Source of the DNA: an uncultured Spirochaetaceae bacterium
Lineage (GTDB): Bacteria; Spirochaetota; Spirochaetia; Sphaerochaetales; Sphaerochaetaceae
DNA: 64,000 bases
Direction: 5' to 3'
NCBI GenBank assembly: GCA_944392985.1
Contig: CALXYL010000005.1
Coordinates: forward strand, 1 to 64,000
In this document: positions 1-14,775 of the stretch, in pieces
Layout: every line of letters begins with the position of its first letter
Position numbering within the stretch: position 1 is the first letter of the stretch
Made by a program: the position numbers and the translations under genes
Notes under the pieces: generated by a model
What the model saw: only the letters and a program-made list of their open reading frames with translations
The model's database searches: none
What the model was told of the DNA's origin: nothing

Positions 1-15
1 TATTGGTTAGATAAA

Positions 16-64
16 CCCGGCTATGATTGGCTGTTTTTCCCCGGCTACGGTTGGCTTTATTTTA
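16..64. repeat. two tandem 24-base units
   Basis: CCCGGCTATGATTGGCT and CCCGGCTACGGTTGGCT recur 24 bases apart with T-rich tails. The length is a multiple of three and both read PGYxWLxF in frame 1, suggesting a coding repeat cut by the window edge. Confidence 0.5.
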
Positions 65-7467: not shown

Positions 7468-8616
7468 TTATTTCATTATCTTCCTGAAGAGTGCCTTGAA
7501 ATCCTCGATGGAAGCATCCTTCGGGTTTCCGGGAGCACATGCATCCGCTGCAGCGCTCTCTGAGAGGAACTGAAGATCCTCCTCCTTGATTGCATCGAGC
7601 TTCTCAGGGATTCCTACGTCCTTTGAAAGCTGCCTTACGGCGTCGACTGCTGCCTTGCGGTACTCGTCCTGTGACATTGAGTCAACACCCTTCACTCCCA
7701 TCGCCCTCGCGATCTCCCTGTACTTCTCGCCTGTGGCTTCCGCGTTGAACTCCATGACGATAGGAAGCATCATCGCGCATGCGACTCCGTGCGGTGTGTC
7801 ATATACAGCACCAAGCGTATGAGCCATCGAGTGAGCGATTCCAAGACCGACATTCGAGAAGCCCATTCCCGCGATATACTGGCCGAGAGCCATATCCTTC
7901 TTGCCCTCTGCATCCCCTGCCACGGATGACCTGAGGCTCCTAGTGATGATCTCGATAGCCTTGAGATGGAACATATCTGTCATTTCCCACGCGGCCTTTG
8001 TCGTATAGCCTTCGATCGCATGTGTCAGGGCATCCATTCCTGTTGCGGCGGTGAGGCTCTTAGGCATGGTAGCCATCATATCGGGATCGACTACAGCGAC
8101 AACCGGCATGTCATGCGGATCGACGCAGACGAACTTCCTCTTCTTCTGCACATCGGTGATGACGTAGTTGATCGTGACCTCTGCTGCTGTTCCCGCGGTT
8201 GTAGGTACTGCGATGATAGGAGTGCAGGGGTTCTTCGTCGGGGCTGTCCCCTCAAGGCTCCTGACATCTTCGAACTCAGGGTTTGCGATGATGATTCCGA
8301 TTGCCTTGGCTGTATCCATTGAGCTTCCACCGCCGATGGCGACGATGCAGTCTGCCGCGGCATCCTTGAATGCCTGCACACCGTGCTGGACATTCTCGAT
8401 TGTCGGATTTGCCTTGATATCCGTGTAAAGAGAGTATGCGATTCCCGCTTCATCAAGCACGTCGGTGACTTTCTTCGTCACTCCGAACTTCACAAGATCA
8501 GGATCGGAGCACACAAATGCCTTTGCAAAGCCCCTTGCCTTGATTTCCGCTGCGATTTCCTTTATCGCTCCGCTTCCATGATAGGAAGTCTCGTTGAGCA
8601 TGATTCTGTTTGCCAT
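7468..8616 (-). CDS. fucO: lactaldehyde reductase (Fe-dependent alcohol dehydrogenase)
   Basis: This 382-residue protein closely follows E. coli FucO along its whole length: MANRIMLNET at the start, IAIGGGSSMDTAKAIGI (NAD loop), TTAGTAAEVTINYVITD, GMDALTHAIEGY and the iron-binding AHSMAHTLGAVYDTPHG. FucO reduces lactaldehyde to 1,2-propanediol in fucose and rhamnose fermentation. ATG 8616 has GGAGG seven bases upstream. An in-frame upstream ATG at 8670 also has a GAGGAGG site and would add 18 residues. No fucose genes are nearby, so a general alcohol or aldehyde role is possible. Confidence 0.93.
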   Translation of the reverse strand: MANRIMLNETSYHGSGAIKEIAAEIKARGFAKAFVCSDPDLVKFGVTKKVTDVLDEAGIAYSLYTDIKANPTIENVQHGVQAFKDAAADCIVAIGGGSSMDTAKAIGIIIANPEFEDVRSLEGTAPTKNPCTPIIAVPTTAGTAAEVTINYVITDVQKKRKFVCVDPHDMPVVAVVDPDMMATMPKSLTAATGMDALTHAIEGYTTKAAWEMTDMFHLKAIEIITRSLRSSVAGDAEGKKDMALGQYIAGMGFSNVGLGIAHSMAHTLGAVYDTPHGVACAMMLPIVMEFNAEATGEKYREIARAMGVKGVDSMSQDEYRKAAVDAVRQLSKDVGIPEKLDAIKEEDLQFLSESAAADACAPGNPKDASIEDFKALFRKIMK

Positions 8617-8626
8617 GAGTATTCCT

Positions 8627-8720: not shown

Positions 8721-8749
8721 TGGACAGCTTCGCCTCCTTCTGATATCCT
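8721..8749 (+). promoter_or_regulatory. promoter of the pyrimidine operon
   Basis: TGGACA (8721-8726), a 17-bp spacer and TATCCT (8744-8749), preceded by TGA as in an extended -10. Predicted transcription start is near 8756, just ahead of the leader ribosome binding site at 8758-8762. Confidence 0.6.
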
Positions 8750-8769
8750 ACGGCATCGGAGGTCAGAGG

Positions 8770-8862
8770 ATGACAGATAGGATGGAACATCTTTCGATAT
8801 CTTCATGCTCACCCTCGTATTGTTTCTGTATGGATGCCGGCTCTGTCCGGCTTTTTTATTAA
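8770..8862 (+). CDS. pyrL-like leader peptide of the pyr operon
   Basis: A 30-codon reading frame opens with ATG 8770 behind a perfect GGAGG (8758-8762, seven-base spacing). It runs through a pyrimidine-rich stretch, then the terminator hairpin, and stops at 8860-8862, three bases after the T-run and nine before pyrB. The peptide starts MTDRMEHLSIS and ends SVRLFY. This is the same geometry as the E. coli pyrBI leader, where a ribosome translating PyrL close behind a paused polymerase prevents terminator formation when UTP is low. The function here is inference from layout. Confidence 0.65.
   Translation: MTDRMEHLSISSCSPSYCFCMDAGSVRLFY
8836..8857 (+). terminator. attenuator ahead of pyrB
   Basis: GCCGG (8836-8840), loop CTCTGT, CCGGC (8847-8851), then six T (8852-8857). 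The stem is only 5 bp but GC-pure and is followed directly by the T-run. It lies between the promoter and the pyrB ribosome binding site, inside the leader peptide frame, as expected for an attenuator. Confidence 0.65.
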
Positions 8863-8871
8863 GGAGAGGCT

Positions 8872-10464
8872 ATGTCAAATGCATTCGCAGCAAGATCGCT
8901 CAATGTGATAGACGATCTATCGATCAATGAACGCCGCTATTTCTTCTCAAAGGTGAAGGAGCTGAAGGACGGTATCCTTTCAGGTGATGAGAAGGTGATG
9001 GACAGCTTCCGCATCAATGATCCTGATTTCGGTATCTATGAGGTATTCCTTGAGGACAGTACCAGAACGAAGGAATCATTCAGGAACGCAGCCGCATTCC
9101 ATCATGTCAAGGTTTCTGAGCTGATCTCATCCTCATCATCAATCAACAAGGGTGAGAGCTATGCCGATACATTCAACATGCTTTCCGGCTACCACAATTC
9201 CATCTTCATCGTCAGGAGCAAGGTTGAGGGGCTGACGAAGTGGCTTTCCGAGGAATGCAGCGATTACGCCGAACGCAACCATCTTCCGTACAGACCGGCT
9301 TTCATCAATGCCGGCGACGGCAAGCACGAGCATCCGACGCAGGAGCTATTGGATGAGTTCACATTCCTTGAGGATCTCGGCATGAGCTTCGATTCGATAC
9401 ACGTGGCGCTTGTCGGCGATCTCTATCATGGGCGCACTGTGCACTCAAAGGCAGATGGCCTCAGAATCTTCGACCACGTGAAGGTCGATCTTATCGCTCC
9501 CGATGAGCTGATGATGCCCGAATCATATATCGAGAAGATGAAGGAGAACGGCTTCGAGGTTTCCGTGTTCTCGTCTATCGAGGCGTATCTCAAGGCAGGA
9601 AGGCCCGCGAAGCTCTGGTACTTCACAAGGCCGCAGCTTGAGAGGATGGGCGAGAGGATACTGCAGAAGCAGGATATACTCCGCGAGGCGATTACATTCC
9701 GCAGGGACTTCCTTCCGATGCTTGCGGAGAACACGAAATTCTATCATCCGCTTCCGCGCCATAAGGAGCATCCGACTATCCCTACGTGGCTTGACAAGAC
9801 ACCTCTCAATGGCTGGGAGAGACAGGCGATCAATGGCATGTACTGCCGCATCGTGCTGCTGTCGCTGATCGGTGGCAGGATCGGGGAGGATTATATTCCT
9901 GTTCCTGGTGAGCATGACACCGACAGAAGGACTGAGGAGTACATCATCCAGGTGGAGCCGTCGAAGGACAGGAAGGACAAGAACTACTCAGAGGGTGTGC
10001 GCCCGATCACTGATGGTATCGTGATCGACCATATCTGCAAGGGCGATGAGCCGGGCGTGATCAGAAGCCATATGAGGCTCATCTCATCTGTTCTCGGGCT
10101 CGATGATGGAAAAGGCGGGGAATGGGTTTCCCGTGGAAGCGATGGGCAGTACAAGGGAATCATCTTCCGCCCCGGTGCAGGACCGCTGGAAAGAAAGGAT
10201 CTCAAGCGCCTTGCGGCTGTTGCTCCGCACTGCACTCTGAACATCATCAGGGATGGCCGTGTCGCCGAGAAGTACAGGACGCACATGCCGCCGCGCATCT
10301 ACAACTTCGATGATCTCTGCTGCCAGAATGATGCCTGTGTTTCCAATCCGGTCAACGGTGAAGGTGTTCCTGCTTCGTTCTACCGCACTCCCGATGGCCA
10401 TTTCGCCTGTGCATATTGCGGCCGTTTCCATAACTTCAAGGAAATATGGAAAAAACGCCCATAA
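8872..10464 (+). CDS. pyrB: aspartate carbamoyltransferase, catalytic-regulatory (PyrB-PyrI) fusion
   Basis: At 530 residues this fuses both chains of ATCase. The catalytic part has the carbamoyl-phosphate motif DSTRTKES near residue 62, GDGKHEHPTQ near 145 and FYHPLPRHK near 300. The C-terminal third is PyrI-like and ends in a four-cysteine zinc site (CQNDAC near 483 and CAYC near 513). The enzyme makes carbamoyl aspartate, the first committed step of UMP synthesis; the fused regulatory domain predicts nucleotide feedback control. AGGAGAGG precedes ATG 8872. It is the first structural gene of the operon. Confidence 0.95.
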   Translation: MSNAFAARSLNVIDDLSINERRYFFSKVKELKDGILSGDEKVMDSFRINDPDFGIYEVFLEDSTRTKESFRNAAAFHHVKVSELISSSSSINKGESYADTFNMLSGYHNSIFIVRSKVEGLTKWLSEECSDYAERNHLPYRPAFINAGDGKHEHPTQELLDEFTFLEDLGMSFDSIHVALVGDLYHGRTVHSKADGLRIFDHVKVDLIAPDELMMPESYIEKMKENGFEVSVFSSIEAYLKAGRPAKLWYFTRPQLERMGERILQKQDILREAITFRRDFLPMLAENTKFYHPLPRHKEHPTIPTWLDKTPLNGWERQAINGMYCRIVLLSLIGGRIGEDYIPVPGEHDTDRRTEEYIIQVEPSKDRKDKNYSEGVRPITDGIVIDHICKGDEPGVIRSHMRLISSVLGLDDGKGGEWVSRGSDGQYKGIIFRPGAGPLERKDLKRLAAVAPHCTLNIIRDGRVAEKYRTHMPPRIYNFDDLCCQNDACVSNPVNGEGVPASFYRTPDGHFACAYCGRFHNFKEIWKKRP

Positions 10465-10485
10465 ATGATAGAATTGGAGGAAGAT

Positions 10486-11184
10486 ATGAAAAGACTTGAA
10501 GAAATAACCGAATACTATGGGCCGATCCTGGCCAAGGGGGCGTTCGAGCTCGGAGCGATCAAGCTCTCTCCATCCGCGCCTTTCACGTGGGCATCTGGAT
10601 ACAGGATGCCGATCTACAACGACAACAGGATGTTCCTCTCCTCCCCGAAGTACAGGGCTCTCATCCGCGACGCATTCGCTGATATGCTTGCTGCTACGGG
10701 AGAGAAGTGCGACAACATTGCCGGTACTGCGACTGCGGGCATCCCCCACGCGACAAGCCTTGCAGATATGCTCTATAAGCCGCTTTCCTATGTGCGTTCC
10801 TCATCAAAGGATCATGGACTTGGCCATCAGATCGAGGGAATCGGCAAGGATGGGTATGGTTCGCAGAAGGTTGTCCTGATCGAGGACCTCATCTCAACTG
10901 GTTCCTCCTCCCTCAAGGCTGTTGAAGCCATCAGGGAATCCGGTGGTGACTGCTCCCTCTGCCTTGCGATATTCACATATGGCCTTCAGGCGGCTTCAGA
11001 TGCATTCGCGGCGCTCACTCCAGCGTGTGTATACCACACGATACTCTCATACGACACGATGATCCATACAGCATGTGAGACCGGGTATATCTCATCTGAT
11101 GAGGCTGATGTGCTCCATGAGTGGAGGGAGGATCCGTTTGCATGGGGAGAGAAGAGAGGCTGGCCAAGGGAGGTGAAGGCATGA
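10486..11184 (+). CDS. pyrE: orotate phosphoribosyltransferase
   Basis: This 232-residue enzyme has the PRPP-binding signature VVLIEDLISTGSSSLKAV near residue 125 and the early substrate region SGYRMPIYNDNR. It converts orotate and PRPP to OMP. ATG 10486 has GGAGG five bases upstream; the ATG at 10465, directly after the pyrB stop, lacks a site and would add seven residues. It overlaps pyrF through ATGA. Confidence 0.93.
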   Translation: MKRLEEITEYYGPILAKGAFELGAIKLSPSAPFTWASGYRMPIYNDNRMFLSSPKYRALIRDAFADMLAATGEKCDNIAGTATAGIPHATSLADMLYKPLSYVRSSSKDHGLGHQIEGIGKDGYGSQKVVLIEDLISTGSSSLKAVEAIRESGGDCSLCLAIFTYGLQAASDAFAALTPACVYHTILSYDTMIHTACETGYISSDEADVLHEWREDPFAWGEKRGWPREVKA

Positions 11185-12065
11185 GCTATATCGACACGCT
11201 CCGCAAAAGCGCTGAGGAAGCAGGGAATGTCGTATGCATGGGGCTTGATCCTGTCATTTCCGTGCTTCCTGCATCTGAAGAGCCCATACGCGAGAGGCTT
11301 TCAGGGTACTTTGCCACGATCTTTCGCCGCATGAGGCTTGAAGGGGTGTCCCCAGCGGCATTCAAGCCGAATCTCGGATACTATTCCTCCCTCGACAACC
11401 CGCGCGAGGAGGATTTCCAGGGTTCCCTTGCTCTTGTGGATATCCTGGATCTCATTGAGAACTTCTTCCCCGGTGTACCTGTCATTCTGGACAGCAAGCG
11501 CGGGGATATTGCGCGTTCAAGCGGCAATTACGCCAAGGAGGCTTTCGATTGCTGGAAAGCCGATGCAGTTACTGTCTCTCCATATATGGGAACTGATTCC
11601 GTCCTGCCTTTTGCATATGAAGGCAAGGGCGTATATGTCCTGAACAGGACGTCCAATCCCGGAGCGGTCGATCTTCAGAATATGCTGACTGTCGATTCTG
11701 TGGATGAGAAGGAGCTCTATCCGATGTATATCGCTGTTGCGCATCGCATTGCATACTGGGCTTCCGAGCATCCCGGCATCGGCGCTGTCGTAGGAGCGAC
11801 AAGCATGAAGGAGCTTGGGGAGATCGCGGCATACTATGCTGGAAGGGATATCCCGATGCTCATCCCCGGAGTCGGTTCGCAGGGTGGAAGCGCTTCCGAT
11901 GTCATTGATGCTCTTGGAAAGGCTGGTTATCCGCTTTCGCTTGCACGTATCAATTCCTCCTCTGGCCTTACCCATCCATGGAAGAAAGGGGAGGCCCCGG
12001 ATGACTGGCTTGACCAGGTGATGGCTGCCATCCACGCGCTCTTTGAGGAGGCTTCTCTCAGATGA
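11181..12065 (+). CDS. pyrF: orotidine 5'-phosphate decarboxylase, type 2
   Basis: The 294-residue length and the motifs FKPNLGYY near 70 and VILDSKRGDIARSSGNYA near 105 place this in the longer (type 2) OMP decarboxylase group. The Lys and Asp of DSKRGD are catalytic. It makes UMP from OMP. The start lies in an ATGA overlap with pyrE, and the end overlaps pyrD the same way, so the operon is translationally coupled throughout. Confidence 0.94.
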   Translation: MSYIDTLRKSAEEAGNVVCMGLDPVISVLPASEEPIRERLSGYFATIFRRMRLEGVSPAAFKPNLGYYSSLDNPREEDFQGSLALVDILDLIENFFPGVPVILDSKRGDIARSSGNYAKEAFDCWKADAVTVSPYMGTDSVLPFAYEGKGVYVLNRTSNPGAVDLQNMLTVDSVDEKELYPMYIAVAHRIAYWASEHPGIGAVVGATSMKELGEIAAYYAGRDIPMLIPGVGSQGGSASDVIDALGKAGYPLSLARINSSSGLTHPWKKGEAPDDWLDQVMAAIHALFEEASLR

Positions 12066-13729
12066 AGATTGATGATCTCAGGGGCAACCATCTCAGGAAG
12101 AAGGCAATCCTTGCTACCGTATCGGGCGTTGCTTCAACGAAGAAGGAGCTGATAGAGCTCTTCGACAGGAAGATACCGAGCATCGATATCATCACGACAA
12201 AGAGCTTCCAGGTCCAGCCGAACCATGGGAACAGGGAGCCGATCGTATGCTCTCCTTCCCCCGGGGACTTCGGCAATTCCGTAGGGCTGAGGAATCCTGG
12301 CATGGATGTCATTATCCCGGAGATCAAGGCGATAAGGGAGAAGGGGATGAGAGCACTGCTCAATATATCCCTCTCCGCTTCGAGCCCGGAGGATTTCATC
12401 ACGCTCATCAAAGCATCCGATCCGTACGCGGATCTCCTTGAGCTGAATTTCTCCTGTCCTCATGCTGCCGCGGGGTATGGAGCATCGATCGGAAGCGATA
12501 AGGGTATCGCATCGTCATATGTGAAGGCCATCAATGAGGCATATCCTGAAAGGAAGGCTCCTCTGATCATAAAGCTGACGCCGAATGTCGAGGACATAGG
12601 TGCGATCGCGAAGGCTGTGATAGATGCCGGTGCCGATGGCATCGCGGCAATCAACACCGTGGGGCCGAAGCAGTACATCGAGCCTCATGCGGGTAAGCCT
12701 ATACTGAACAACAAGCTGGGCGGCAAGGGAGGAGCATCCGGTGAGTGGGTCAACAGTACCGCTCTTGAAGCCATACGCTCAATCCGCGCTGCCATAGGGG
12801 ATGAGCCGATCATCCTTGGAATGGGTGGAGTAACCCGTCCCGGTGATGTCCTTGCGATGCTTGAGGCGGGAGCTGACAGCGTTGGGATAGGCTCTGCACT
12901 CTCACGTGTCATGCCCACTGAATGGGAGGATTACCTCCATGCCATGAAGACCGGAGGGGATGCGGAGCGCTATCTCTCGAAGGAGAATGCGCTTGTCTAT
13001 ACGCCGCATACGGTTGTAAGCAAGGAGATGCATGGCTCTGATGTGATGATCCTCACCCTTTCAGGGAAGATGGACTGCCAGCCGGGCGAATTCGTGTTCC
13101 TGTGGCTTCCTGAGGTGGGGGAGAAGCCTTTCTCCGTCGCTGTCAATGATCCTCTGACATTCCTCATCAAGAAGCGCGGTCCTTTCACCGAGGCTATCTT
13201 CGGTATCAAGGAGGGAGATACGGTCTACACAAGGGGACTCTATGGGCGTCCGATGGTCTACACGCCTTCACAGTCAGCCTTGCTGATAGGCGGGGGAACC
13301 GGAGCTGCAGTCCTTCCTCTCATTGCTGACCGTCTGAAGAAGGATGGCACAAGGATGGATATCCGTGTGGGAGTCGTGGAAAGAAGCGATGGAAAGGATC
13401 CTCTGCAGGAAGTGCTTGAGGGCTATGGAAGCTATCTTTCCGTGGCTGATGACGGAAAGCCTGGCAGGGTTCTCGATACGATAGTGAAGGAGGATATCGA
13501 GGATGATACCTCCGCTTATATCGTCGGGCCAGGAAGGATGATGGAGAAGGCCGCAGAGCTTCTTGAATCGCTTGGAATGGATGATGACCGTATCTATCTC
13601 TCGATGGAGAAGAATACGATGTGCGGCATCGGAATGTGCGGGGAGTGTGTCTGCGGCGGTCATCTGCCTTGCAAGGAAGGGACATTCTTCACATGGAAGG
13701 TGCTCAAGGAGAACGGTGTCCAGCTATGA
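12062..13729 (+). CDS. pyrD: dihydroorotate dehydrogenase fused to its electron-transfer subunit (PyrD-PyrK)
   Basis: The 555-residue protein joins two proteins usually separate. Residues 1 to about 300 form the FMN barrel of class 1B dihydroorotate dehydrogenase; NFSCPH near 135 holds the expected catalytic Cys, and GMGGVTRPGD the phosphate site. Residues about 310 to 555 resemble PyrK, with a flavin/NAD module (LIGGGTGAAVLPL near 405) and a [2Fe-2S] site MCGIGMCGECVCGG plus a later LPCKEG. The fusion would pass electrons from dihydroorotate to NAD+ within one chain. ATG 12062 overlaps pyrF; the end overlaps pyrC. Confidence 0.93.
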   Translation: MKIDDLRGNHLRKKAILATVSGVASTKKELIELFDRKIPSIDIITTKSFQVQPNHGNREPIVCSPSPGDFGNSVGLRNPGMDVIIPEIKAIREKGMRALLNISLSASSPEDFITLIKASDPYADLLELNFSCPHAAAGYGASIGSDKGIASSYVKAINEAYPERKAPLIIKLTPNVEDIGAIAKAVIDAGADGIAAINTVGPKQYIEPHAGKPILNNKLGGKGGASGEWVNSTALEAIRSIRAAIGDEPIILGMGGVTRPGDVLAMLEAGADSVGIGSALSRVMPTEWEDYLHAMKTGGDAERYLSKENALVYTPHTVVSKEMHGSDVMILTLSGKMDCQPGEFVFLWLPEVGEKPFSVAVNDPLTFLIKKRGPFTEAIFGIKEGDTVYTRGLYGRPMVYTPSQSALLIGGGTGAAVLPLIADRLKKDGTRMDIRVGVVERSDGKDPLQEVLEGYGSYLSVADDGKPGRVLDTIVKEDIEDDTSAYIVGPGRMMEKAAELLESLGMDDDRIYLSMEKNTMCGIGMCGECVCGGHLPCKEGTFFTWKVLKENGVQL

Positions 13730-14775
13730 TCGATCCCCATGTGCATCTCCGTGACTGGGAACAGAGCGGGAAGGAGACGATACTGCATGGCATGAGCGTT
13801 GCCTCACGCCTTGGTTTCACCCATCTGTTTGATATGCCGAACACAGCGCCTCCCTGCACTGACAGGGATACGATCCTTTCCCGCCTTGCCGATGGAGGGA
13901 AGGCGGCTGAAGAGACAGGTGTTTCGTATCATCTATACGCCGGGCTTACTGCAGATAAATCCCAGATAGAGGAGATGGCGGCGCTCCATGGTGAGCTATT
14001 CCCTCTGGTTGTCGGTCTGAAGATGTTCGCCGGGCAGTCAACGGGGAATATGGGGATCATTGGGAAGGAAAGGCAGCGTTCTGTCTTTGAGACCCTTGCT
14101 TCCTGCTCCTATTCCGGCGTGCTTGCGGTGCATGCGGAGAAGGAGGAGCTGATGAGGCCCGATCTCTTCGTGAAAGGAAAGTGGGAGACCCACTCGGAGG
14201 CGCGTCCTTCTGCAGCGGAGACGGAAAGCGTACGTGATCTCATCGATGCGGCTGTGGAAACAGGATTCCGCGGTACGCTGCACATATGCCATGTCTCCGC
14301 GTCCTCGACGATAGAGCTTGTCAGGAAGCGCCGGGAAGATGTGTCTTTCAGGATAACGATGGGAGCGACACCGCATCACGCGCTTCTTTCCGTGAAGGAC
14401 AGCAGAGACCATAGCCGCCTGCTGAAGATGAATCCGCCCCTCAGGAGCGATGCGGACAGGGATGCCGTATTCAATGCGCTTCTTGATGGGACGATCGATT
14501 GGGCTGAGTCAGACCATGCTCCGCATGCTATCAGCGACAAGGAGAACGGGGCATCGGGGATTCCAGGACTCCCCGGCATGCTTCTCCTGCTTTCCTCCCT
14601 TCGACGCGCGGGTGCTTCGGAAGCGCATCTCAAAGCTCTTTTCGGAGGGAATGCTGCCGAGGCTTTTGGTCTGGAGTATGATGACGGCTGCCTTCCGTCA
14701 GATCCGTACTGCCTTTATGAGCGTGAAGCGGGGGAGTATCCATGGAATCCGTTCTGTTCAGGGGAGGGAAGATGA
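13726..14775 (+). CDS. pyrC: dihydroorotase
   Basis: This 349-residue amidohydrolase starts right at its metal motif (DPHVHLRDW), which is why ATG 13726 was chosen. GLKMFAG near 95 carries the Lys expected to be carboxylated, and LAVHAE, HICHVSA and ESDHAPH supply further metal ligands and the catalytic Asp. It cyclises carbamoyl aspartate to dihydroorotate. It shares ATGA overlaps with pyrD and with the small exported protein that follows. Confidence 0.94.
   Translation: MIDPHVHLRDWEQSGKETILHGMSVASRLGFTHLFDMPNTAPPCTDRDTILSRLADGGKAAEETGVSYHLYAGLTADKSQIEEMAALHGELFPLVVGLKMFAGQSTGNMGIIGKERQRSVFETLASCSYSGVLAVHAEKEELMRPDLFVKGKWETHSEARPSAAETESVRDLIDAAVETGFRGTLHICHVSASSTIELVRKRREDVSFRITMGATPHHALLSVKDSRDHSRLLKMNPPLRSDADRDAVFNALLDGTIDWAESDHAPHAISDKENGASGIPGLPGMLLLLSSLRRAGASEAHLKALFGGNAAEAFGLEYDDGCLPSDPYCLYEREAGEYPWNPFCSGEGR

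Follow-up and report, generated by a model that had tools for sequence, protein, structure and literature searches.

The pyrimidine operon of the window (the whole 64,000-nucleotide stretch of DNA that was analyzed) is, judging from its sequence and those of its relatives, probably controlled by a pyrBI-type device, i.e., a UTP-timed, translation-coupled transcription attenuator, the kind of which is known from E. coli pyrBI, while its occurrence in a spirochaete and the helix over the leader ribosome site described below (P1) are new here. Attenuation of pyrBI is a textbook case from enteric bacteria; in the open-access literature, to which the search was confined, no report was found of a pyrBI-type attenuator in a spirochaete or of P1 in pyrBI. 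The parts themselves (Table 1), a hairpin, a U-rich zone, P1 and a leader frame showing the marks of selection, can be read directly from the sequences compared.

The window belongs to the genome of a gut spirochaete of the Candidatus Ornithospirochaeta type (Sphaerochaetaceae), the named relatives of its PyrBI being Candidatus Ornithospirochaeta (91%), Bullifex and Sphaerochaeta, and its operon runs in the order pyrB(I)-E-F-D/K-C with the genes overlapping or abutting one another. The initial annotation, which had read the locus as a fused pyrBI heading a whole-pathway operon in a spirochaete, was right in all three respects, as seen from the PyrBI relatives and the profile matches of the operon genes, and its promoter, strong SD, 30-codon leader, terminator and pyrB start nine bases beyond the leader stop are exact to each base. 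Transcription would start at about 8755-8757, and a promoter of the form TNGACA/TTTACA-15..19-TAWNNT lies 5' of the leader start in 55 of 72 relatives (0.15 in shuffles). As the upstream neighbor is encoded on the opposite strand, the terminator before pyrB cannot be that of this gene; the hairpin (five pairs, -8.7 kcal/mol) is modest when taken alone, with 9 of 200 shuffles being equally stable.

Table 1. Features of the pyrimidine operon and its leader region (positions within the window).
Feature	Position	Strand	Details
Lactaldehyde reductase gene, 5' neighbor, divergent	7468-8619	-	
Promoter, sigma-70 type	8721..8749	+	TGGACA-17 bp-TG-A-TATCCT (TG before -10); consensus scan
Leader Shine-Dalgarno (SD)	8758..8763	+	GGAGGT, 6 nt 5' of ATG
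P1 helix, 5' arm	8759..8773	+	GAGG, GAG, AUGA; leader SD and start codon
Leader ORF, pyrL-like	8770..8862	+	30 codons, MTDRMEHLSISSCSPSYCFCMDAGSVRLFY, through terminator; ATG 8770, TAA 8860-8862
P1 helix, 3' arm	8803..8816	+	Anti-ribosome-site segment adjoining the U-rich tract on its 5' side; pairs 8759-8762/8813-8816, 8766-8768/8808-8810, 8770-8773/8803-8806
U-rich pause zone (putative)	8818..8835	+	TATTGTTTCTGTATGGAT; kept core TGTTTCTG, 8821-8828
Intrinsic terminator (predicted)	8836..8857	+	Hairpin GCCGG-CTCTGT-CCGGC, 8836-8851; T6, 8852-8857
pyrB ribosome-binding stretch	8863..8871	+	GGAGAGGCT, nine bases, leader stop to pyrB ATG 8872
pyrB-pyrI fusion, aspartate carbamoyltransferase catalytic and regulatory chains	8872..10464	+	NF009916, 803 bits (cut-off 800)
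pyrE, orotate phosphoribosyltransferase	10465..11184	+	TIGR00336
pyrF, orotidine-5'-phosphate decarboxylase	11181..12065	+	TIGR02127
pyrD fused to PyrK-like electron-transfer domain, single ORF	12062..13729	+	TIGR01037 (14-280) and NF000796 (326-550), both matches under their cut-offs
pyrC, dihydroorotase-like	13723..14775	+	TIGR00857, 194 bits, under cut-off 279

A pyrBI-type gene is present in 119 of the 139 genomes of the family, and a terminator lies at most 110 nt from pyrB in 103/110 of the family's loci, where 3.1 would be expected from shuffles. Among the 125 leaders with a terminator (Sphaerochaetaceae plus Treponema, Clostridia and deeper spirochaetes), 89 have a strong start, i.e., a start codon with at least five matching SD bases, and in 87 of these the frame stays open to 12 nt or less from the hairpin (11.4 expected from shuffles), vs. 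23 and 27 when the same starts are read in frames +1 and +2; for the non-redundant leaders the figures are 69/71, vs. 16 and 21 in the other two frames. The comparison therefore indicates that the leader frame is under selection to stay open. The terminator stem has its first three pairs canonical in 88/88 leaders, with the pair types interchanging and the sequence changing freely. A comparison of leaders among relatives had been named with the initial annotation as a test that could have gone against the proposed E. coli pyrBI-like design, and it found the frame conserved and the layout kept while the peptide varies, so that this claim, too, is supported.

With two upstream exceptions, the leader stop falls at one of three positions: it precedes the stem by 0-9 nt, lies 5-14 nt into it or comes after it. 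Each of the three would put a ribosome over the hairpin's 5' arm. The stop just past the T-run, given by the initial annotation as part of the design, is real in the window but does not hold as a conserved feature: only a minority of leaders share with E. coli a stop beyond the stem, and most relatives have theirs 0-9 nt before the hairpin or inside it. Placing a stop codon 5 nt ahead of a terminator in E. coli cuts termination from ~90% to <10%, an effect that requires a translated gene (PMC4824070).

A segment lying 40-11 nt 5' of the hairpin is complementary to the leader SD and start codon, with which it would form P1. The mean duplex energy is -13.6 kcal/mol for the native partners vs. 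-10.9 kcal/mol with a shuffled partner (the native one being better in 62/77), and swapping partners within a genus weakens P1 (permutation p 0.0000 for both g1-close and g2, 0.001 for g1-far, 0.0003 for g16 and 0.04 for g12). These shuffles and swaps, rather than column counts, were used to test P1; MAFFT misplaced the short arms of close leaders. Sister species carry arm variants such as AAGGG/CCCTT, AAGGT/ACCTT and AAGGAT/ATCCTT. The signal is limited to the -40..-11 segment and the SD-AUG zone, and none like it was seen at the pyrB ribosome site or in 178 ordinary genes. Within the window genome alone, P1 is not exceptional, as 6.7% of ordinary genes reach -14.4 kcal/mol, and the support for it is hence comparative. 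No swap signal was seen in Clostridia (three non-redundant leaders). Another candidate for an SD-hiding segment, 8730-8760, was dropped, as it lies 5' of the presumed transcript start and does no better than shuffles.

When co-transcriptional folding is considered with 14 nt assumed to be hidden in the polymerase, P1 becomes complete only once the polymerase has come to ~8830, where the U-rich core ends. We would give about an even chance to P1 acting as a timer, whereby the leader ribosome site stays open while the polymerase is in the U-rich tract. RNA polymerase would start at ~8756, and the leader ribosome site would emerge at once; were UTP plentiful, the polymerase would cross the tract fast, 8803-8816 would emerge, and P1 would close over the SD and AUG, after which no ribosome would follow, the hairpin 8836-8851 would fold and transcription would end in the T-run. 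Were UTP scarce, the polymerase would hesitate in 8818-8831 with the P1 3' arm still inside it, a ribosome would load on the open leader and read up to the polymerase, and the latter, released with the hairpin covered, would transcribe pyrB-E-F-D/K-C. That termination actually takes place, and that UTP is the signal, we infer.

A reading that should be taken seriously, even if we find it rather unlikely, is that P1 only shuts off the leader once the terminated RNA is complete, as a helix does in trpL, with no role in timing and with the switch being otherwise E. coli-like. It agrees with the compatibility of P1 and the terminator, which fold together with no overlap between P1 and the terminator stem, and with the window's terminated RNA, which would lack a stop codon, so that a hidden start would spare ribosomes; P1, however, is equally present where the leader stop precedes the hairpin.

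As for UTP as the signal of the proposed timer, T makes up 43% on average of the 30 nt before the hairpin in the family, as compared with 24% for gene-end terminators (p=2.5e-11), and T-rich windows are found in most genera, yet genus g16 (Sphaerochaeta proper), which keeps the leader, terminator and P1, has only 29% T, and a U-rich sensor is thus not universal. The lack of clear U-enrichment in g16, together with the P1 3' arm being itself pyrimidine-rich, which could partly reflect the complementarity of that segment to the purine-rich SD, speaks for a leader-coupled attenuator with no UTP pause, whose leader would report translation rate or ribosome supply and whose U-rich zone would serve only as an anti-SD arm and terminator context. 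We nevertheless deem it improbable, as the controlled gene is always pyrB, the T-rich windows recur in most genera, and in genus g1 the U-rich core lies downstream (3') of the P1 arm with its distance to the hairpin kept.

In the closest relatives, 14-16 nt separate the core TGTTTCTG from the hairpin, and the core is read in frame 0 or 2: the window has TGT-TTC-TGT, most close relatives ATT-GTT-TCT-GAA. The leader peptides are unlike one another, with no conserved run of control codons; going by these comparisons, the conserved element is the RNA and not the peptide. An amino-acid-sensing leader peptide of the trp/his type, which works through control codons plus a terminator/antiterminator pair, would also put a short ORF ahead of a terminator, but it is made very improbable by the unconserved peptides, the missing codon run and the different frames of the core, and also by P1 and the terminator being compatible, with no antiterminator that excludes the terminator being seen.

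PyrR-type attenuation is common for pyr operons in Bacillota, and five relatives do carry PyrR; that this or some other protein-dependent attenuation governs the operon is, however, scarcely credible, for such a mechanism needs no open translated leader. PyrR attenuation in B. subtilis also controls the pyr operon by termination but needs PyrR and its RNA site, whereas the window genome yielded neither: in this genome (95.9% complete), the best PyrR match reaches 28.5 bits with a cut-off of 138, and the Rfam scan of the window gave no element, including no PyrR-binding RNA.

Region-wide consensus scans are, by themselves, at chance level (promoters, 8 vs. 6.5 expected; terminators, 4 vs. 4.8), and the locus stands above chance because of its uniqueness, its T-richness and its conservation in relatives: it is the only SD-led ORF reaching a terminator before a gene in 444 kb (~1/5) of the same genome, and the 43% T in the 30 nt 5' of its hairpin exceeds that of every scanned gene-end terminator (mean 24%; 35 from the window's genome, a control replacing the set of relatives' loci with its 8 terminators). 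That the terminator is an ordinary one and the ORF unused, the two being brought together by chance, would be in keeping with the bare consensus scans but can be dismissed for practical purposes, being refuted by the conservation in relatives as well as by the open frame, the stem pair changes, the T-richness and the P1 tests. Inspection by eye of the region 5' of carA, also in this genome, showed no attenuator like that of pyrB.

The comparison with E. coli pyrBI/pyrL covered layout and P1, the leaders being short and diverged: both have a short 5' end, a strong SD, a leader ORF running through the terminator, a U-rich zone before the hairpin and an intrinsic terminator just before pyrB. The ATG-to-hairpin distance, however, is 89 nt in E. 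coli and 66 nt in the window, the stop is at +45 and +26, respectively, and the leader has 44 codons in E. coli vs. 30 in the window, where the operon, unlike that of E. coli, spans the whole pathway and begins with a fused pyrBI. The E. coli start also has an AAUUU run for reiterative control, which the presumed transcript start of the window lacks. In the E. coli rph-pyrE attenuator, a ribosome near the terminator likewise controls a pyr gene, but its leader is a complete gene lying upstream, whereas the window has a divergent gene in that place. The B. subtilis yxjB (tlrB) leader (PMC6851288) likewise combines a leader peptide and a terminator with polymerase pausing and a hairpin that sequesters an SD; that leader, however, serves a structural tylosin-resistance gene and has tylosin as its signal, while in the window, it is the leader's own SD that would be hidden, with UTP as the supposed signal. 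According to a 2010 survey, no leader-peptide system had been demonstrated beyond Proteobacteria and Actinobacteria until the Firmicutes cases that it presented itself (PMC2965389).

P1 could be placed at -34..-17 for E. coli, at -37..-16 for Klebsiella, at -32..-19 for Proteus and at -35..-16 for Photobacterium, while in Aeromonas and in the fusobacterium Ilyobacter it would lie farther 5'; the six-way permutation p is 0.004, with the helices being mostly weak singly and the gammaproteobacterial sample consisting of five genera. That pyrBI attenuators generally (those of Spirochaetota, Bacillota, Fusobacteriota and Gammaproteobacteria) contain a P1-type helix timing ribosome loading by UTP, overlooked even in E. 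coli, is a tentative proposition to which we give somewhat less than an even chance. In Ilyobacter polytropus (L283:130-300), the 56-aa hypothetical protein annotated 5' of pyrBI has the look of a leader ORF that ends at a terminator, and a AGGTAGAAAA/TTTTCTACCT pairing would cover its SD.

The same layout is found in Treponema (L197-L202), with peptides such as MIYSLITRSCKFCHPRLF, while the PyrBI sequences of deeper spirochaetes, eleven in the sample, fall into a clade of their own without the device. The device, which may be convergent or very old as the initial annotation had it, goes back at least to the Sphaerochaetaceae/Treponema PyrBI clade. Clostridial PyrBI sequences (L166, L168-L170) branch inside the Ornithospirochaeta clade (support of the enclosing fork, 99/98), their loci have the leader and, in most cases, a clear terminator, and pyrE- and pyrF-like ORFs follow pyrBI in L166; such nesting, with the device in front, suggests that gene and device moved together, and the operon was probably transferred with its device into Clostridia (L166-L170). 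A pyrBI-type device that is standard in Sphaerochaetaceae and Treponema, and has moved into Clostridia, would be widespread, and more than 100 natural versions with a varying peptide and a constant layout would allow the essential parts to be separated from the accidental ones; they also point to a helix closing the ribosome site, which is directly testable in E. coli, the original host of the mechanism.

Some loci depart from this layout. One genome (G041) has near-identical pyrBI on two contigs (C7 and C8), be it a duplication or a mixed assembly. The small leader ORF is gone at L087, L091 and L105 (G025, G023 and G028, from two sister genera), where a polysaccharide-type tyrosine-kinase-like gene stops shortly before the pyrB terminator in an arrangement resembling rph-pyrE. 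Nine loci (L074, L078, L081, L082, L090, L072, L084, L099 and L100) have a leader without an SD, and their -10-like TGATAGATT is just a few nt 5' of the leader ATG; their ORFs may be read from leaderless RNA. The first five of these belong to G031, G032, G033, G057 and G058, the family's only true PyrR carriers.
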